Shown here one piece after another: positions 5,894 to 30,115 of a DNA stretch of 42,034 nt. The DNA is taken from NCBI GenBank assembly GCA_018268335.1, contig JAFDWT010000098.1:1-42034 (forward strand), in the 5' to 3' direction. Numbering within the stretch: position 1 is the first letter of the stretch; every line of letters begins with the position of its first letter. A program made the position numbers and the translations under genes. The notes under the pieces were generated by a model. It was not told the origin of the DNA, ran no database searches, and was given only the letters and a program-made list of their open reading frames with translations. Source of the DNA: Armatimonadota bacterium. GTDB lineage: Bacteria; Armatimonadota; Fimbriimonadia; Fimbriimonadales; Fimbriimonadaceae.

Positions 5894-5969
5894 TGGTGAG
5901 TCGTCTGGGACTCGAACCCAGGACCCACGCCTTAAAAGGGCGTTGCTCTACCGACTGAGCTAACGACTC
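5894..5969 (-). tRNA. tRNA-Lys (anticodon UUU)
   Basis: The minus strand folds into a 76-base cloverleaf including an encoded CCA (5894-5896). The acceptor stem pairs 5963-5969 with 5898-5904. The D arm reads AGCTCAGTCGGTAGAGC, the anticodon loop CTTTTAA gives UUU, and the T arm has GGTTCGAGTCC. It lies 25 bases upstream of the purM start, in the same direction, and could share its promoter. Confidence 0.97.
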
Positions 5970-14888: not shown

Positions 14889-14909
14889 AACTTGGAGCCC
14901 TTTTTTCAC

Positions 14910-15695
14910 ATGCCTCTGTCACCCGACCTCTTGCAACGGACCTGGATCGACTACAAGGTCTACAAGAACCCGACCGCCCGCGTCGACCTGATCAACCACT
15001 ATTCGTACTTGGTGAAGATCACGGCAGGAAGGCTGGTCACCAGTGTCCCTGGCGGACTGGACCGCGACGACCTGGTCAGCGCCGGCGTCATTGGCCTCAT
15101 CAAGAGCGTCGACCAATACGACCCCACACGGGACGTCAAGTTTGAGACCTACGCGATCGCCCTCATCCGGGGTGCGATCCTGGAGATGCTCCGCGACGAG
15201 GACTGGGTGCCCCGCTCCATCCGCGAGAAGCTGAAGGCGCTCGACAGGGCGCAGACAAAATTGGAGACCGAGTTCGGCCGTCCCGCCTCAGTCCGCGAAC
15301 TGGGTGATTACCTGTCGATGTCGGACCAAGAGGTCAACGACCTGCTCGTCCGAGTGGGCCGGACCAATGTGTACAGCTTGGACGACGTCGTCGGCGGCGG
15401 CAGCCAAGACGGCGACGACCACATCCACTTTGTCGAGATGATCGTCGACGAGGACGCCAACCCGGGCAGCGAGATCGAGGGCAAAGAGCTGCGCCGCATC
15501 ATGGCGAACGGCGTCGACCGGCTACCCGAGCGCGAGCGCTTGGTCATCGCCCTGTACTACTTCGAGGGCCTGACCTTTAAGGAGATCGGCAAAGTTTTAG
15601 GTGTCAGCGAAAGCCGTGTGTACCAACTGCACACGCAAGCGATGGGTAGGTTGCGCAACTTTATGCGCGATGAGGGGGCGGCTCACGTCGCCTAG
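14910..15695 (+). CDS. RNA polymerase sigma factor, FliA/WhiG type
   Basis: 261 residues from the ATG at 14910, with GGAG 12 bases upstream. Region 2 covers ~20-95 (GLDRDDLVSAGVIGLIKSVD; YDPTRDVKFETYA). Region 3 (~100-165) contains ELGDYLSMSDQEV. Region 4 (~195-250) contains LPERERLVIALYYFEGLTFKEIGKVLGVSESRVYQLH, the -35-binding helix-turn-helix. This is the group-3 architecture of flagellar FliA and sporulation WhiG. No flagellar genes or FlgM-like anti-sigma are visible in the window, so its regulon is unknown. Confidence 0.93.
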   Translation: MPLSPDLLQRTWIDYKVYKNPTARVDLINHYSYLVKITAGRLVTSVPGGLDRDDLVSAGVIGLIKSVDQYDPTRDVKFETYAIALIRGAILEMLRDEDWVPRSIREKLKALDRAQTKLETEFGRPASVRELGDYLSMSDQEVNDLLVRVGRTNVYSLDDVVGGGSQDGDDHIHFVEMIVDEDANPGSEIEGKELRRIMANGVDRLPERERLVIALYYFEGLTFKEIGKVLGVSESRVYQLHTQAMGRLRNFMRDEGAAHVA

Positions 15696-17577: not shown

Positions 17578-18519
17578 TTAAGCAGTCCACAGGAATGGTT
17601 CGGCGTCGGTGAGTATCTTTCCGTGCTTTTCTATGGCGCGTAGCATGTATTCGGGCAACGTGAACATCGCTTGGTGGAACCGCGGCGTGTAGTAGCGGTT
17701 GCTGACCCCTCGGGTAGCGTGGCGGGCAGCCACGTCCTCTTGCGTCAACGCCATCGGGTCGTGCTTCTTGCTGGCCAGAATGAAGCCCCACGGCATCTGG
17801 AAGGTCGTCACGAGGCCGTAGTAACCACGCACATAGGCGAACGTGTCCTTCATCGAGTCCAGGGTCGCGAAGATCTGGCTGAAGAGATAGGGATACGTCT
17901 CGTTGCAGGCACCAGATTGCAGGACAAAGACGCCGTCGTCACTCAGCGACTCGGCCACGTGTTGGAAGTACTCCTTGGTGTAGAGCATGCGCGCCGGACT
18001 GCCTTCGTGCGGGCCGGGCAGGTCGCTCAGGATCACGTCGTAGCCGTGGCCCTTGTGGTCTTCGATCCACTTGCGGGCGTCCTGGTGCACCAGCGTGACG
18101 CGCGGGTCGTCAAAGCAACCGTGGTGCCACTCGGTCATGTGCACCTTCACCCACTGGATCAGCTCCTCGTCCAGATCGACCATGTCGGCCTTCTCAACGG
18201 TGTTGTGTTGGAGGGCCTGCCACAAGGTGGCTCCTTCGCCGCCACCCGCCACGAGCACCTTCTTGGGGTTCGGGTGGACGGTCATGGCGGGCTGGACCAT
18301 CGACTCGTGGTACACGTATTCGTCCAGCAGACTGGACTGGATTTTGTAGTCCAAGAAGAGCGTCTTGCCCCAGACCGGGATGTCGACGATTTGGTACTGC
18401 TGGTACTGCGACTTGCCCTCGACGAGAAAGCGGTCGACGGAAAAGAACCACGTGACGCCCTCAGTGTGCGTCTCGGCAATGAACATGCCGGTGCTTTGGG
18501 AGAACAGCTTCTCGCTCAT
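17578..18519 (-). CDS. speE: Spermidine synthase (polyamine aminopropyltransferase)
   Basis: 313 residues. Transfers the aminopropyl group of decarboxylated S-adenosylmethionine to putrescine or another polyamine. An N-terminal beta-stranded tetramerisation region (QIVDIPVWGKTLFLD) precedes the Rossmann domain: DEYVYHESMVQPAM, the cofactor loop VLVAGGGEGATLWQAL (usually GGGDGG), acidic VDLDEELI, then YDVILSDLPGP in place of the usual DSTDP. The loop and catalytic-site variants leave open a relative with another acceptor (thermospermine or agmatine type). speD lies 102 bases upstream on the same strand and makes the aminopropyl donor, which supports the call. Confidence 0.88.
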   Translation of the reverse strand: MSEKLFSQSTGMFIAETHTEGVTWFFSVDRFLVEGKSQYQQYQIVDIPVWGKTLFLDYKIQSSLLDEYVYHESMVQPAMTVHPNPKKVLVAGGGEGATLWQALQHNTVEKADMVDLDEELIQWVKVHMTEWHHGCFDDPRVTLVHQDARKWIEDHKGHGYDVILSDLPGPHEGSPARMLYTKEYFQHVAESLSDDGVFVLQSGACNETYPYLFSQIFATLDSMKDTFAYVRGYYGLVTTFQMPWGFILASKKHDPMALTQEDVAARHATRGVSNRYYTPRFHQAMFTLPEYMLRAIEKHGKILTDAEPFLWTA

Positions 18520-18551
18520 GGGAATGGACGGCGGGATGATAGCACTGGGAA

Positions 18552-18616
18552 GTCCTCAGACTTCAGTCTTCAGTCCCCAGAGTTGTGCCGAGGACTGAAG
18601 ACCGACGACTGAAGAC
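18552..18616. repeat. Clustered CTTCAGTC inverted/direct repeats between speD and speE
   Basis: The 102-base speD-speE gap contains several copies of the octamer-like unit CTTCAGTC and its complement. An 11-bp perfect inverted repeat pairs 18566-18576 with 18592-18602 (15-base loop). Further units lie at about 18560 and 18607-18616. The transcript between the two polyamine genes would fold into a long hairpin. It may be a processing or attenuation element, or a dispersed simple repeat. Confidence 0.55.
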
Positions 18617-18621
18617 CTGAG

Positions 18622-19215
18622 TCAAACCTCGACTTCGCTTTGGATGCCGCGGCGGACGACGAGGAACTTGATGCGGCCCGGCTTAAAGCGGTCGCGCAGC
18701 ACCTCGATGGCGCGGTCGACATGGATGGTGCCGCCGCAATAGAACAGGTCGACTGCCGCATAGCCGTGCTCGGGCCAGGTGTGCACGGTGTAGTGCGACT
18801 CCTGGATGATCACGGCGCCAGAGACGCCGAAAGGCTTGAACTCGTGAAACGAATCGGTGACAATGGTCGCCTCGCTGGCCTTGGCAGCGTCGAGCATGGC
18901 TGTCCCGACGGTCTTTTCCTTCTCCAAGGCCTCGTGGTCACAGTCAAACATCTCGATCAGGAGATGCGAGCCCAGCGACGGTTCTTCACCCTTGACGTTC
19001 GGCAGACCTTGAGAGTCCCGGCCGAGCCAATGGTTGAAATCGTCGGCGTCCTCGCTGTGCACGAGCTGCCAACCGGCTTCGTTTTCGATGCGCGGTGGAG
19101 CCGCGACCATGTCTTTACGGTTGCGCCGGCCCAACATCCGACGGAACCAAGCTTGGCGCTGCGCGCTAGCCAACGGAACGACAACCGCGGCGATCGCGGC
19201 ACTCATTGAAGTCAT
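18622..19215 (-). CDS. speD: S-adenosylmethionine decarboxylase with N-terminal extension
   Basis: 197 residues from the ATG at 19215. The C-terminal ~115 residues are a prokaryotic pyruvoyl-dependent AdoMet decarboxylase: GSHLLIEMFDCD opens it, and the self-cleavage site is QESHYTVHTWPEHGY, where the Ser before His becomes the pyruvoyl group. AAVDLFYCG follows. Bacterial SpeD is typically 115-140 residues. Here about 80 extra residues precede it, with a hydrophobic helix (SAAIAAVVVPLASA) and then basic RRMLGRRNRK, like a membrane anchor with positive inside. A stop lies just upstream, and no start shows a good Shine-Dalgarno sequence, so a shorter start is possible. Confidence 0.85.
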   Translation of the reverse strand: MTSMSAAIAAVVVPLASAQRQAWFRRMLGRRNRKDMVAAPPRIENEAGWQLVHSEDADDFNHWLGRDSQGLPNVKGEEPSLGSHLLIEMFDCDHEALEKEKTVGTAMLDAAKASEATIVTDSFHEFKPFGVSGAVIIQESHYTVHTWPEHGYAAVDLFYCGGTIHVDRAIEVLRDRFKPGRIKFLVVRRGIQSEVEV

Positions 19216-19497
19216 TACTATGGTAGTCAATCAAGTTTCCCTCACGTTGCTCTAGGCCGCACTCACCCCTGGTGGGGCAAGGTCGGCGAAGAAACCCGAC
19301 CGAACGACAAAACTGAGGCCCTGCAGGCCGTTCGTAACCCGACAAACCAGGAGAACGCCGCTTTGAGAGCACCTTCCTCCTGACCTGTTCCCGTCTCGAT
19401 TAAGACAGGATGGTCCTCAGCTTTCGGCGCCAGTCTTGGGGAAAACCCGTCGTCTGCCGCGCGGACGCATGATACCAAACGCTAGGTTCGAAATCAA
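19216..19497 (-). promoter_or_regulatory. speD promoter and ~245-base structured leader
   Basis: On the minus strand TTGATT (-35, 19492-19497) and TATCAT (-10, 19469-19474) are separated by exactly 17 bases, a good sigma-70 promoter. Transcription would begin near 19462, leaving a leader of about 245 bases before speD. It can form several hairpins: CCTGT/ACAGG, CGAACG/CGTTCG enclosing GCC/GGC, and GGTCGG/CCGACC. An AGGAGG precedes a GTG-started 68-codon frame (19372-19166) that overlaps the speD start in another register. I could not match it to a known riboswitch class. Confidence 0.5.
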
Positions 19498-19590
19498 GCG
19501 ATGGTCCCTGTGTCGGCCTACATTTCACATAGCCCGGACAGGCACCACTTGTTTGACGGCACAAACAATGCCGAACAGCAGCTTTGTCCG

Positions 19591-20232
19591 CTAAAGGACC
19601 CGGCCCTCGGCCATGTGGACAGCGCGGTCGACGCCTTCCAGCATCGTCGGGTCGTGCGTGACCACCACCAGACTGCCTGTCCCCCGGTGGCTACGGAGCA
19701 GGTCCATCACTTTGATGCCGGTCGCGTGGTCGAGTGCGGCGGTCGGTTCGTCGCAAAAAACGATCTCTGGACCACCAAGCAGCGCCCGTGCGACGCAGAC
19801 CCTCTGCCGTTCGCCACCGCTCAGTTCGTGGGGCAGACGGTGGGACTTCTCCCCCAGGCCGACTGCCTCGAGGAGCGCCATCGATTCGTCGCGGCAGTCT
19901 TGGTCCGGTCGGGCGACCATGATGTTCTCCAACGCCGACAGGTAGCCGACAAGGAACGGGTGCTGGAAAACAAACCCAAAAGTCTGCAGCCGGAGCCGGC
20001 TGCGCTCGGCGTCTGAGAGCTCGTCCAGCCCGCGACCGCGATAGAGGGCGCGGCCTTGGGTCGGCACCTTGAGGCCGCTGAGCAAGTAGAGCAGCGACGA
20101 CTTGCCCGACCCGCTCGGCCCCAAGATGCCCAGGAACTCACCTGGCCGCACCTCCAGGCTCACGTCATGGCAGGCAAAGACGTCGCCGTCTTTGTCCGCA
20201 TAGACAAGCGAGGCGGATTCGAGCGAGGTCAA
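19591..20232 (-). CDS. ABC transporter ATP-binding protein (LolD/MacB type)
   Basis: 213 residues with all ATPase motifs: Walker A GPSGSGKSS at ~38-46, Q-loop VFQHPFLVG near 88, signature LSGGERQRV at 137-145, Walker B IVFCDEPTAALD at 157-168 and H-loop VVTHDP. The start is a TTG overlapping the permease stop (TTGA), with a strong AAAGGAGG 5 bases before it; this start gives exactly the family's normal beginning. It pairs with the permease to form an exporter or lipoprotein/peptide-handling complex of the MacB/LolCDE/DevCA type. Confidence 0.93.
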   Translation of the reverse strand: MTSLESASLVYADKDGDVFACHDVSLEVRPGEFLGILGPSGSGKSSLLYLLSGLKVPTQGRALYRGRGLDELSDAERSRLRLQTFGFVFQHPFLVGYLSALENIMVARPDQDCRDESMALLEAVGLGEKSHRLPHELSGGERQRVCVARALLGGPEIVFCDEPTAALDHATGIKVMDLLRSHRGTGSLVVVTHDPTMLEGVDRAVHMAEGRVL

Positions 20233-21377
20233 ACCAGCCTCCTTTCGACCACGGCCACCGGGTCGAACCGACGGAAGCGGGCGACGACCGTGGCCAAAGC
20301 CACCGTGTAGATTGCCACCGGCACCGGCAAGGTGTAGAAGTAAGCCGTGCGGTCGAACGGGTCCAACATGAACGCCTTGGGATCCATCAACGTGGCGCGG
20401 ACGACATTGAGCAGAAGATAGGCGCACAGAACACCGGCCACCCAGCCACCCACGACCACCGCCGTCATCTCCCCCATCACCCGCTGCAAAATCGCCTTCT
20501 TGGTATAGCCCAACGCTTGCAAGAGGCCGAACTCTTGGACGCGCTGCGAGAGGAAGATGCTGATCAGCATCCCCATCATGATCGTGATCACGACCACCAG
20601 CATGCCGACGACGACATCGAGGATCTTGTACAGGATCCGGAACATCTCGCTCGTGTCCTTTTCCAGCTTGTGAAAGGCGAAGACGCGCGCCCGCTCGCCG
20701 GTGAACCGCTTCTCCGCCCAATGGTCCAGCTTGGCCTGCTCGACCGGTGTCTTGGCAAAGGCCAGCAGAGCGTCGACCGGCGGAAAGTGGTTGGCGGCGA
20801 CATAGTCGTAAGGGATCACCGCCGTCCATTCCTGGCTGTGCACCTTGCCGACGATCTTGACTTTATAAGGCGAGTACGCCTCGGGTTTGTCCGGCCCCAA
20901 CACGACGTCCCCGATCTTGACGCCGAGGTTGCGCATCACGGGCTCGCTCAGGACAACCTCGGGCTCGCCGTCCTTGGGCATCCTGCCTTCCAATTCGCCG
21001 GGGCCGACGTGGTCCATGTAATAGCTCATGTCCTCGGGCTTCAGAGCTAAGATCACGAACGGCCACTTGCCGACGATGCTCATCACGTTCAGGTCAAGCC
21101 CACGCACCGCCATGACCCGGTCGAGCGGCACTGGGGCCTCTTGTTCAATGGTCTGGCGGATCTTGCCGGTCATCTCCGGGTCACCGCGCGGAGTCAGGCC
21201 GACGTAGTGGCGCGAATAGCTGTAGATCGTCCGGATGCTGAGCGGGATGGAGTCCATCATCGCCACGATGCCGCTGACCAGCATCACGGCCAGCACAATG
21301 ACGCCCACCAGGGGAAGCGACTTCCCCTTGTTGCGCCAGAGATAAGTGCCGGCCCGCAGCGGCCCGTAAGTGGGCAC
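20229..21377 (-). CDS. ABC transporter permease, FtsX/MacB-like
   Basis: 382 residues from a GTG two bases after the reductase stop. One N-terminal membrane helix (LVGVIVLAVMLVSGIVAMM) is followed by a ~200-residue periplasmic region. Three C-terminal helices then form an FtsX domain (VVVGMLVVVITIMMGMLISIFL; QEFGLLQALGYTKKAILQ; VVVGGWVAGVLCAYLLL). This is the four-helix MacB/LolC/DevC topology. It is translationally coupled to the ATPase behind it. The cargo is unknown and no membrane-fusion protein gene is adjacent. Confidence 0.9.
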   Translation of the reverse strand: MPTYGPLRAGTYLWRNKGKSLPLVGVIVLAVMLVSGIVAMMDSIPLSIRTIYSYSRHYVGLTPRGDPEMTGKIRQTIEQEAPVPLDRVMAVRGLDLNVMSIVGKWPFVILALKPEDMSYYMDHVGPGELEGRMPKDGEPEVVLSEPVMRNLGVKIGDVVLGPDKPEAYSPYKVKIVGKVHSQEWTAVIPYDYVAANHFPPVDALLAFAKTPVEQAKLDHWAEKRFTGERARVFAFHKLEKDTSEMFRILYKILDVVVGMLVVVITIMMGMLISIFLSQRVQEFGLLQALGYTKKAILQRVMGEMTAVVVGGWVAGVLCAYLLLNVVRATLMDPKAFMLDPFDRTAYFYTLPVPVAIYTVALATVVARFRRFDPVAVVERRLV

Positions 21378-21379
21378 GG

Positions 21380-22048
21380 TCAGGCGTCCCCTCGCTGGGC
21401 GTACCGCAGGAACACCTCGTCCTGAACAGGAAGGCAGGAAACGAGCCTGTATCGCTGCACTTGTTCTCGGCTGAGCGGATCGCCGCCAGCGTAGGTCGGC
21501 GTGCTGCGGCCTAGCTTGATCTTGGGGGCCAGGGTCAGGAAGAGCTCGTCCACCAGATTCTCGTGTAGCAATGCCGCGTTGAGCTCGCTTCCGCCCTCGA
21601 CCACAATTGACATAACGCCATGCTCCCGCCTGATCGTTCGGAGCGCATTGCTCCAACAGGTCTCTTGTCCTGTCGTGTCGAGGCATTGGACTTGGTTTGG
21701 CACCGAGTCTCGCGGGCCGACGACCCATGCCGAGCCTGGCGCGTCGGTGAAGAACCTCGAGCCGTAGTCGAGGTCACCGCCACGGGTCGCGACATAGCGC
21801 TTCAGGCGGGCCGGATACCACAGCCCTTTCGTGGCCCGAAGCGAGCCGGCGCCAATGAGCACCGCGTCGGCCGCCGCTTCGATCTGCCGCATGGTGGCAT
21901 GGTCGACATCGGAGCCAAGGTCGGCGACCGCCTCGTCTCGACCGCCAGTCACGGTCTTGCCGTCGATGGTGGCCACCATGTTGATGACGACGTAGGGCCG
22001 GTCGGCAGGCGCATCAGCGAAGCGCAAACCCGGATAGACGCCGTCCAC
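21380..22048 (-). CDS. RibD C-terminal/dihydrofolate-reductase-like reductase
   Basis: 222 residues with the NADPH-binding RibD_C fold: VVINMVATIDGKT at the start, ADAVLIGAGSLRATK in the middle, SIVVEGGSELNAALL near 144 and ELFLTLAPKIKLG near 170. It lacks the deaminase half of RibD, so it may be a stand-alone 5-amino-6-ribosylamino-uracil reductase or an unrelated pyrimidine/pteridine reductase. It starts with GTG 32 bases behind the sigma-factor gene and ends 2 bases before the permease GTG, which puts it in one operon with the sigma factor and ABC exporter. Confidence 0.85.
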   Translation of the reverse strand: MDGVYPGLRFADAPADRPYVVINMVATIDGKTVTGGRDEAVADLGSDVDHATMRQIEAAADAVLIGAGSLRATKGLWYPARLKRYVATRGGDLDYGSRFFTDAPGSAWVVGPRDSVPNQVQCLDTTGQETCWSNALRTIRREHGVMSIVVEGGSELNAALLHENLVDELFLTLAPKIKLGRSTPTYAGGDPLSREQVQRYRLVSCLPVQDEVFLRYAQRGDA

Positions 22049-22080: not shown

Positions 22081-23355
22081 TTAGGCCGCTTGTGCTTGGT
22101 CCGGATTTCCGGTCGCCGAGGCTTTGGACAGCAGGTCATTGATCGACCTGCCATGGTCCGGGCCGATAGCCCAACCAAAGCTCACCCGCATCGGGCTGTT
22201 CGGCGCGATCCGACCGACCGACCAGCGCTGGAACTTGGCCTCTAACCGCTCGCAAGCTATCGCGACTGTTTCGCCAGTCCCCGGCAAGATGATGCCAAAA
22301 CCATGCTGGCCGTAGCGGCAGACGATGTCCAGAGCCCGGACGCTCGTCCGGAAGAACTCGGCGGTGTCGACCAGGAAGTCACGGACGCCCTGCTCGCCAA
22401 AGTAGCCGCGCATGGCCTGCACGCCGGTGATCTCGACAGTGATGACGCTGACCACTCCATTGGAGCTACAAACTCGGTGGAGCTCCTCAGTCAGCCGCGA
22501 CCGGAAGTACGTTTCGGCGTACGCGCTGGTCTCGGCGTCCATGACCCGGCTGTTGTCTTCGGGCTGCGCCATGCGCAGCAAGCGGTCTTGGTCTTCCTCA
22601 GCCGTCAAGATGCGGCGGAGTTTGGACAGCGACTGCCGCAAGATGTGCGAAACGTAGTTGCACGAGATGCCAAGGCGAGAGGCGATCTCTGTCTGCGACA
22701 ACGCGTCGAAGTGGAACAACACCAAGACTTCGCGCTCCAGGTCGCGAAGCTGCTGCATGGCGGTCTCCAACACGACGCGGTCTTCAACGCTGGTCTGGGC
22801 GCCCTGGACCAGGCTGGCGTCCAGCCGCTCGACGTCGCTGTCGGCCTCGTCGTCATCGTTAGGAGTGGCGTCCAGGCTGGCGACACGCAACATGTCCTGG
22901 GTGGCGTTCACCTCTTGGACGGCAGACTCGCTGACGCCGATCTTCTCCGCGATCTCGCGCTCGGTCGGTGTGCGCCCCAGCTCAGCTTGGAGCATGTTGG
23001 AAGCCTTATTGACCTTGTGGCGGAGTTCCTGCAGCCAGGCTGGGTGGCGGATGGTCTGGGCGCGGTCGCGGAGGTAGTGCTTGATCTCACCGGCCACCAA
23101 GTGGGTGGCATAAGTGTTGAACCGGACGCCGGCGTTCGGATCGAACTTGCTCAGCGCGTTGAGCAGGCCGATGTAGCCCACTTGCGCCAAGTCGTCGACG
23201 GACTCGATCCCGCTGAACCGGCGGGCGATGCGCTCGACCATTCCAGCGTAGTGCAGGATCACCAGGTCTTTGAGGTCTGGCCGTGGATCGGCCAGGTACT
23301 CAAGCACCAGGTTCTCTGCGTCTATATGACTCTTCTTTGCCAAAGCATCCGACAT
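22081..23355 (-). CDS. Sigma-70 family factor fused to a degenerate GGDEF domain
   Basis: 424 residues. Region 2 spans ~30-100 (VDDLAQVGYIGLLNALSKFD; VRFNTYATHLVAGEIKHYLRD) and region 3 ~105-165 (GRTPTEREIAEKIGVSESAV). After an acidic linker (165-185), region 4 spans ~190-250 (LSQTEIASRLGISCNYVSHIL). This resembles SigB/SigF-type group-3 factors. Residues ~280-412 then follow the GGDEF fold: a first strand VITVEITGVQAM, the RYG...FGIILPGT hairpin at 347-360 and final VSFGWAIGPD. The active-site loop reads GQHGF instead of GGDEF, and the metal/substrate positions of the first strand also differ, so it should not make c-di-GMP. GGAG lies 6 bases before the ATG. Confidence 0.88.
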   Translation of the reverse strand: MSDALAKKSHIDAENLVLEYLADPRPDLKDLVILHYAGMVERIARRFSGIESVDDLAQVGYIGLLNALSKFDPNAGVRFNTYATHLVAGEIKHYLRDRAQTIRHPAWLQELRHKVNKASNMLQAELGRTPTEREIAEKIGVSESAVQEVNATQDMLRVASLDATPNDDDEADSDVERLDASLVQGAQTSVEDRVVLETAMQQLRDLEREVLVLFHFDALSQTEIASRLGISCNYVSHILRQSLSKLRRILTAEEDQDRLLRMAQPEDNSRVMDAETSAYAETYFRSRLTEELHRVCSSNGVVSVITVEITGVQAMRGYFGEQGVRDFLVDTAEFFRTSVRALDIVCRYGQHGFGIILPGTGETVAIACERLEAKFQRWSVGRIAPNSPMRVSFGWAIGPDHGRSINDLLSKASATGNPDQAQAA

Positions 23356-23496: not shown

Positions 23497-24699
23497 TCAC
23501 TTGACGCCGTTGACCAGTGTGAAGACTGGTGTCATGACCGAAATCGCAATAAAGCCGACGACGAGGCCGAGGAAGATGATCAACGCTGGCTCGATCATCG
23601 AGGTCAGACCCTTGACGGCCGCTTCGACCTCAGAGTCGTAGAAGTCGCCGACTTTCACCATCATCTCGCTCAGGCGTCCCGATTCTTCACCCACGTCGAT
23701 CATGTGGGTGACCATGCTCGGGAAGAGGCCGCTCTGGGCCAGGGGAGTGCTGAGTTTGCTACCCTCGCGGATGCTGTTCCGCGTGGCGTCGATGGCGTGG
23801 GTCAGGCAGACGTTGTTGAGCGTCTCGCCGACGATCTCCAGGCTGCGCATCATGGGGACGCCGCTGTTGATCAGCGTGCCAAACGTGCGGCAGAAACGGG
23901 CGACGCTCATCTTGAGCGACAGCTCGCCGATCACCGGCACTTTGAGCTTGAAGTAGTCGAACTGCTCCTTGCCACGAGGCGTCTTGCCATACATCTTGAT
24001 GCCGACGAACATCGCGCCGAAGGCCAACAGGATGACCCACCAGTAAGCGGCCATGAAGTCGCCCATCGCGAAGAGTGCGGCGGTGACAAACGGCAGCTTG
24101 ACGTCCATGCCGGTGAAAATCTCTTTGAACTTCGGCAAGACGAAGCTGAACAGCACGAACAACATGAGCTGGCTGAAGCACAACACCAGGACGGGGTACA
24201 TCATCGCCGACTTGATCTTGCTGCGGACCTCGTTCTCGTATTCGAGGAAGCCCGACAGGCGGTCGAGGATGACGTCCAAAATACCGCCGATCTCGGCGGC
24301 GCGGACCATGTTCACATACAGCTTGCCAAAGACGACCGGGTGCTTGGCCATCGCCTCGTTCAGCGTCGAACCACCCTTGACGTCCGTCGTGATCTGCTCT
24401 AGAGCAGGCCGCAGGAACGGGTCTTTGGATTGCGTCGTGAGAATCTCAAGGCACCGCAAAATCGGGATACCGGCGTCGATCATCGTCGCGAACTGGCGCG
24501 AAAAGACGACCAGCGCCTTGGGCTTCATCTTGCCGCGCGCCTTGCCCGTGCTGACCTTGCGCTTGGTCTCCTTGATCTCGACGACCTGGAGTGAAAGCTC
24601 CCGCAGGCGGCTGACGACGCCAGCTTCGCTTTCGGCGTCCAAGACAGCTTTGATTTCCTTTCCGCTGCTATCCAAGGCTACATATGCAAACTGTGGCAT
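23497..24699 (-). CDS. pilC: Type IV pilus/type II secretion inner-membrane protein PilC (GspF)
   Basis: 400-residue platform protein. It has the two tandem T2SSF domains with SRQFATMIDAGIPILRCLEIL (~68) and SVARFCRTFGTLINSGVPMMRSLEIVG (~270). Hydrophobic spans lie near 170-190, 215-235 and 375-395. The N-terminus MPQFAYVALDSSGKEIKAVL is typical of the family. It works with the PilB ATPase, whose gene lies about 10 kb away at 34852-37827, to assemble pilins. The upstream aminopeptidase gene is separated by a strong hairpin, so it probably has its own promoter. Confidence 0.96.
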   Translation of the reverse strand: MPQFAYVALDSSGKEIKAVLDAESEAGVVSRLRELSLQVVEIKETKRKVSTGKARGKMKPKALVVFSRQFATMIDAGIPILRCLEILTTQSKDPFLRPALEQITTDVKGGSTLNEAMAKHPVVFGKLYVNMVRAAEIGGILDVILDRLSGFLEYENEVRSKIKSAMMYPVLVLCFSQLMLFVLFSFVLPKFKEIFTGMDVKLPFVTAALFAMGDFMAAYWWVILLAFGAMFVGIKMYGKTPRGKEQFDYFKLKVPVIGELSLKMSVARFCRTFGTLINSGVPMMRSLEIVGETLNNVCLTHAIDATRNSIREGSKLSTPLAQSGLFPSMVTHMIDVGEESGRLSEMMVKVGDFYDSEVEAAVKGLTSMIEPALIIFLGLVVGFIAISVMTPVFTLVNGVK

Positions 24700-24738
24700 C
24701 CAGACGTTCTCCTGCCGGGGTGACCGACCCTAGGGAGA

Positions 24739-24781
24739 TTGTCGGACAGGCGACCCCGGACTGCTCAGGGTCGCCCGACAA
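24739..24781 (-). terminator. Hairpin between aminopeptidase and pilC genes
   Basis: GGCGACCC (24749-24756) pairs perfectly with GGGTCGCC (24768-24775), extended after a small bulge by TTGTCG (24739-24744) with CGACAA (24776-24781). The stem is 14 bp and very GC-rich, 15 bases after the minus-strand aminopeptidase stop. No U-run follows, so termination may need help or it may protect the 3' end. Confidence 0.6.
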
Positions 24782-29682: not shown

Positions 29683-30006
<324 letters not shown>

Positions 30007-30115
30007 TCATTCACCTCCACGTGGCCAAAAAGTGCCCGGTAATTTTCCCAGGGTTCATCAACAAGAACACCTCAAGACGAGCAATCTGGGGCCGCAACTG
30101 GCGAAAATCAGGCGA

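Follow-up and report, generated by a model that had tools for sequence, protein, structure and literature searches.

We propose, with a probability of roughly 70%, that the product of one gene in the window (the whole 42,034-nucleotide stretch of armatimonadotal DNA that was analysed) is an enzymatically dead, c-di-GMP-binding group-3 sigma factor (SigB/SigF/WhiG-like) for the type IV pilus genes, which is probably also under ClpXP control. The gene encodes a sigma factor fused to a domain with a true GGDEF fold, an assignment that we consider practically certain. The features on which the argument draws are collected in Table 1.

All four Pfam domains of the fusion scored above their curated cut-offs, the GGDEF domain (PF00990) at 2.7e-14 and 53.7 bits versus a cut-off of 23.8. 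The best NCBIfam match was TIGR02980 SigBFG (SigB/SigF/SigG), whose 184.7 bits fell under its cut-off of 234, as expected of a divergent group-3 member. The sigma part was assigned to group 3 because NCBIfam puts SigB/SigF/SigG first; regions 2, 3 and 4 were present and region 1.1 was absent, the composition of a group-3 sigma-70 factor. The region 3 match (9.3e-12) places the protein outside the ECF class, which has regions 2 and 4 only, and the nearest solved sigma factor was Staphylococcus SigB (PDB chain 8x6g). An AlphaFold model of the full-length fusion had pLDDT 83 and pTM 0.43, the relative placement of the domains being uncertain; in this model the last helix of region 4 was predicted to run past the region, unbroken over residues 232-263, towards the GGDEF domain. 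The GGDEF part modelled alone with 55 homologues gave pLDDT 91 and pTM 0.86, and all 50 of the PDB matches listed for it by Foldseek were GGDEF domains, PleD and WspR among them; compared with PleD carrying c-di-GMP (2wb4_B), it showed a TM score of 0.78 by query length and an rmsd of 2.7 over 147 columns. Sequence profile and fold thus both place the domain in the GGDEF family, and the complete regions 2-4 of a group-3 sigma factor and the GGDEF fold of about 130 residues, as described in a first-pass annotation made from the letters of the sequence, were both borne out. A second group-3-type sigma factor is also encoded in the window (14889-15695, + strand); it has no GGDEF domain, is about 29% identical to the fusion, and ends in GAAHVA.

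Table 1. Features of the sigma-GGDEF gene and its upstream neighbourhood, with positions in the window.
Feature	Positions	Strand	Evidence
Sigma factor - degenerate GGDEF fusion gene	22081..23355	-	424 aa plus stop, single uninterrupted ORF
Sigma region 2, residues 33-99	23059..23259	-	Pfam PF04542 Sigma70_r2, 1.5e-14
Sigma region 3, residues 110-170	22846..23028	-	Pfam PF04539 Sigma70_r3, 9.3e-12
Sigma region 4, residues 199-247	22615..22761	-	Pfam PF04545 Sigma70_r4, 9e-12
Degenerate GGDEF domain, residues 272-413	22117..22542	-	PF00990; AlphaFold and Foldseek
GQHGF replacing GG(D/E)EF, residues 349-353	22297..22311	-	GG(D/E)EF in 0/142 homologues
RALD, the RxxD allosteric c-di-GMP site (R340, D343 = PleD R359, D362)	22327..22338	-	141/142 homologues
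R294 (= PleD R313), I-site residue from partner subunit	22474..22476	-	141/142 homologues
R370 (= PleD R390), third primary I-site residue	22246..22248	-	136/142 homologues
C-terminal Ala-Ala, putative ClpX degron	22084..22089	-	88/95 in class versus 12/385 background genes
pilC (T2SSF), directly upstream of the fusion, 141 bp away	23497..24699	-	PF00482, 1.3e-61
TCCGACAATC, conserved group-3-like -10 element upstream of pilC	24737..24746	-	8-mer count, position, logo

Full-length fusions were found in 39 of the 41 near relatives of the source genome, in 97 of the 113 genomes of its class and, with the limit set at E < 1e-90, in no fewer than 182 of the 291 Armatimonadota genomes searched, usually as a single copy per genome. 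Judged from these matches, the fusion is conserved phylum-wide. A frame artefact, or the joining of two neighbouring genes in assembly, is a negligible possibility given that the fusion is open in nearly all of the 182 independently assembled genomes, and no point was found in favour of such an origin. The earlier claim that the domain is fused directly to the sigma factor therefore stands, and neither of the outcomes named beforehand as speaking against it (another fold for the domain, or two genes with a frame artefact) occurred when it was looked for. One locus (L097, in genome G094; single contig, 98% complete) had a TGA within the GGDEF domain ahead of the I-site, with intact sigma regions, and represents either a pseudogene or a naturally truncated form. 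Other classes of the phylum also have paralogues that consist of the sigma part alone. A scan outside the phylum with the exact peptides of one query gave as its sole match another Armatimonadetes genome (L028), and a search of viral contigs for the fusion found none.

The alignment comprised 142 distinct fusions, of which the source's class contributed 95 and other classes 47; the correspondence with PleD was taken from the PDB alignment, in which fusion residues 271-371 lie on PleD 290-391. The catalytic positions of PleD (D327, K332, N335, D344, E370 and E371) were variable in the fusions, held mostly unrelated residues, and ranked 75th-134th of the 142 domain positions by information content; the set that marks an active diguanylate cyclase (GG(D/E)EF with PleD D327, N335, D344 and E370) is missing from the fusion. 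The replacement of GGDEF by GQHGF and the altered metal positions pointed out in the first reading were thus confirmed, and the other catalytic positions proved to be replaced too. An active cyclase was ruled out by GQHGF together with the loss of GG(D/E)EF in 142/142 fusions, and we are nearly certain that the protein has no diguanylate cyclase activity. Some GGDEF domains that have degenerated still bind GTP though they no longer catalyse a reaction, and the fold around the old active site is intact here; that this site is still enzymatic or nucleotide-binding, for instance by taking up GTP as an allosteric ligand or by making a different cyclic dinucleotide, is nevertheless very improbable, as the metal, base and phosphate positions are the ones now taken by unrelated, variable residues.

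The I-site was kept while the active site was lost. In PleD, R313, R359, D362 and R390 bind a c-di-GMP dimer, three of them from one subunit and R313 from the partner (PMC7288161, PMC12943098). All four residues were kept in 135 of the 142 fusions, their counterparts ranking 10th (R294), 9th (R340), 5th (D343) and 14th (R370) among the domain positions by information content, and the lone fusion without RxxD has its frame cut ahead of the motif. A degenerate A-site with an intact RxxD, the combination seen in dead-GGDEF I-site receptors of the PopA/PelD kind, is therefore present at the level of sequence. The simplest reading would be that the domain was retained for c-di-GMP binding once catalysis had been lost, prior to the diversification of the phylum, and the fusion probably binds c-di-GMP via its I-site; an intact I-site motif alone is no proof of affinity. 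The first-pass annotation had left the ligand of the degenerate domain among several nucleotides, with dimerisation as another role, and had supposed direct ligand control of promoter choice. Because the I-site motif was kept in 141/142 fusions while the active site was lost in all, c-di-GMP is now pointed to specifically rather than GTP or pppGpp, and ligand-free dimerisation is likewise less favoured; the same pattern speaks for direct ligand control, in which binding and switching are what we infer from the residues kept. The intact RxxD had not been foreseen, nor had the linkage to pilC with its likely type IV pilus target, or the Ala-Ala end as a likely second control.

Degenerate GGDEF domains may also have a role in protein interaction, and the domain could be a dimerisation or scaffold module only, its I-site residues holding it together with no ligand; E290, E291 and R287, near-invariant on the helix of R294, could form the protein interface of such a module. 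We consider this unlikely, since the conserved set consists of the four PleD contacts to c-di-GMP, including R313, which acts only across the dimer. Furthermore, the GGDEF fold does not need RxxD, because only 3 of the 6 canonical GGDEF domains in the source genome keep it, and the fusion never occurred in a genome without other GGDEF proteins. As to R287, E290 and E291 themselves (about 22483-22497, - strand), they lie outside both the catalytic and the I-site sets of PleD, and may represent either a binding-site element particular to this family or a surface that contacts the sigma part.

The co-occurrence with other GGDEF proteins held throughout the phylum. The source genome has six strong GGDEF proteins besides the fusion, each of the 182 fusion genomes has at least one, and none of the 15 genomes (of 291) without any GGDEF match carries the fusion (Fisher 2e-7, indicative only on account of shared ancestry). 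Three of these 15 (G046, G047 and G054) are good-quality genomes of one genus, many other members of which keep the fusion. A c-di-GMP riboswitch near the fusion gene was considered and rejected, the only Rfam matches in the window being RNase P RNA class A (29684-30009, + strand) and a tRNA gene (5897-5969, - strand).

The neighbourhood of the gene points to type IV pili. pilC lay directly upstream on the same strand in 37/37 family and order loci with neighbourhoods, at a gap of 29 to 247 bp. The order pilT-pilC-fusion was seen in 9 of 20 loci of other classes (L202-L205, L208, L210, L211, L213 and L215), most of them with a further ATPase gene upstream, and in another (L218) pilC alone adjoined the fusion. 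All eight good fusion-less genomes of the class were without an orthologue of the linked pilC and had a distant paralogue only (Fisher 5e-8, indicative only, as the counts are non-independent and the eight genomes represent one genus). We think it probable that type IV pilus genes are under the control of the fusion. The regulon may extend beyond them or be another one, because the fusion lacked an adjacent pilC in several other classes (L199-L201, L206, L207, L209, L212, L216 and L217) and because two genomes of genus g46 (G086 and G088; loci L109 and L110) have the fusion with no orthologue of the linked pilC anywhere in the genome. Downstream of the fusion on the same strand (17578-22048, -), Pfam identified genes for spermidine synthase, S-adenosylmethionine decarboxylase, an FtsX/MacB-like ABC transporter pair and a RibD_C reductase; of these, the reductase and the transporter genes are found again near the fusion in about 8 of the 37 loci.

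An element of the TCCGACAATC type was conserved upstream of pilC where pilC is the first pil gene. The 8-mer CCGACAAT occurred upstream of pilC in 10 of 35 loci, whereas no 8-mer exceeded 5 in 50 shuffles, and a weaker GTTGGAAT-like box lay 13-15 bases ahead of the -10-type element. The resemblance of this TCCGACAATC/GTTGGAAT-type element to group-3 sigma promoters suggests that the pilC-sigma unit may be autoregulated. A wider regulon was sought with a stricter two-part promoter pattern and rejected: there were 7 forward matches in 41 genomes, of which 2 lay before pilC itself, and the other five look like chance, most of them being inside an open reading frame. Nothing convincing was found with this pattern in the 41 genomes outside the pilC upstream region.

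The Ala-Ala end of the protein offers a possible second control. Ala-Ala-COO is the key element read by ClpX, as in ssrA tags (PMC7652416). The background for this ending was taken from 385 neighbouring genes, of which the 12 with Ala-Ala make up 3%; four of the 95 class fusions end in Val-Ala, and outside the class the Ala-Ala end was seen in only 25 of 47. The last 10-20 residues were unconserved and variable in length, and the Ala-Ala ends were encoded with all three stop codons and all 16 Ala codon pairs, the latter arguing that selection acts on the protein end. The tail is predicted to be disordered (last 8 residues with pLDDT < 50 in the full-length model), clpX was found in 14/14 genomes tested, and the tmRNA tags of relatives share the Ala-Ala end (ANNTFAYAA in the same genus, ANTNYALAA and ANTQNYALAA). 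An Ala-Ala end, a flexible tail and ClpX are hence all in place, and from these features there is a reasonable chance that the Ala-Ala is a working degron; the fusion is probably a ClpXP substrate whose level can be quickly cut. Two loci from reduced 1.5 Mb genomes of genus g45 (L107 and L111) kept the fusion and its RxxD and lost Ala-Ala, with clpX and tmRNA present. That c-di-GMP occupancy gates proteolysis of the fusion is a tentative suggestion. We hold as loosely the fuller proposal, in which the dead GGDEF domain would sense c-di-GMP, expose or hide the adjoining Ala-Ala degron in cis, and so set type IV pilus transcription across the phylum.

At high c-di-GMP, an intercalated c-di-GMP dimer would occupy R340, D343 and R370 of one fusion molecule, and R294 of a second molecule would be bound by the same dimer, cross-linking the two as in PleD. 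With the last region 4 helix predicted to continue towards the GGDEF domain, the cross-linking would change the presentation of region 4, and with it the contact to the -35 element or to the flap of RNA polymerase. The sigma factor would in this way be switched in its activity at the promoters of the pil operon to which it belongs, and probably at those of other pilus genes too, and the exposed Ala-Ala end would allow rapid removal of the fusion by ClpXP. By analogy with RsiG-WhiG, we favour a ligand-bound form that would be inactive or sequestered; the sequence data do not set the direction. SigB/SigF-type group-3 sigma factors are usually held by anti-sigma factors, and the main input might instead be an anti-sigma factor or partner protein docking on the GGDEF domain, with partner switching as in other factors of this type. 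In that case c-di-GMP could aid the docking, as in RsiG-WhiG (PMC8325347). This is rather unlikely, as there is no conserved anti-sigma neighbour and only pilC (and pilT) recur beside the fusion gene; it is also consistent with I-site binding, and would be a modification of, not a substitute for, the reading that we prefer, a sigma factor with its own c-di-GMP receptor.

The proposal is built from known ingredients, namely I-site receptors (PopA, for example), switches in which c-di-GMP acts on a sigma factor, and sigma factors with ligand-binding extensions. We found no earlier description of all three united in a single polypeptide throughout a phylum. The full-text literature, with most subscription journals outside its coverage, gave no paper joining Armatimonadetes, a sigma factor and GGDEF, and no sigma-GGDEF fusion was described among the literature results listed or in the reviews of c-di-GMP effectors and of sigma extensions. 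PleD and WspR share the fold, and PleD the same I-site residues as well, whereas the fusion is without catalytic residues and has a sigma factor as its output domain. ECF sigma factors with C-terminal extensions (ECF41 with SnoaL, CorE) are alike in that a fused C-terminal domain controls the sigma factor, sometimes by ligand; they are group 4 factors whose extensions are SnoaL, Cys-rich or of other kinds, whereas the fusion is of group 3, with region 3 and a GGDEF domain (PMC8999054, a review of sigma extensions in which neither c-di-GMP nor GGDEF is mentioned).

Two related systems divide the task between proteins. The RsiG-(c-di-GMP)-WhiG switch of Actinobacteria governs type IV pili in Rubrobacter, a striking parallel, and there, too, c-di-GMP acts directly on a group-3 sigma complex (PMC8325347, in which GGDEF and Armatimonadota are not mentioned); the ligand sits in RsiG, a separate coiled-coil anti-sigma factor, whereas the fusion carries its GGDEF receptor in the sigma factor itself. 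Among the systems found, c-di-GMP reaches sigma factors via separate partners of this kind, and a sigma factor with its own receptor would connect messenger and promoter choice by the shortest route possible. A dead enzyme with a living receptor also makes for a clean genetic logic, directly testable with one purified protein, and a second idea open to test comes from the Ala-Ala end, that of a messenger-gated, self-contained degradable sigma factor. PopA of Caulobacter likewise has a dead A-site and an intact RxxD, and is a c-di-GMP effector tied to ClpXP proteolysis of a transcription regulator (PMC12564702); it works as an adaptor of the response-regulator type, in trans on CtrA, whereas the fusion has receptor, sigma factor and possible degron in one polypeptide. 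If c-di-GMP does gate the stability of the sigma factor in cis, the armatimonadotal protein would unite in a single chain what Caulobacter splits between PopA and CtrA.
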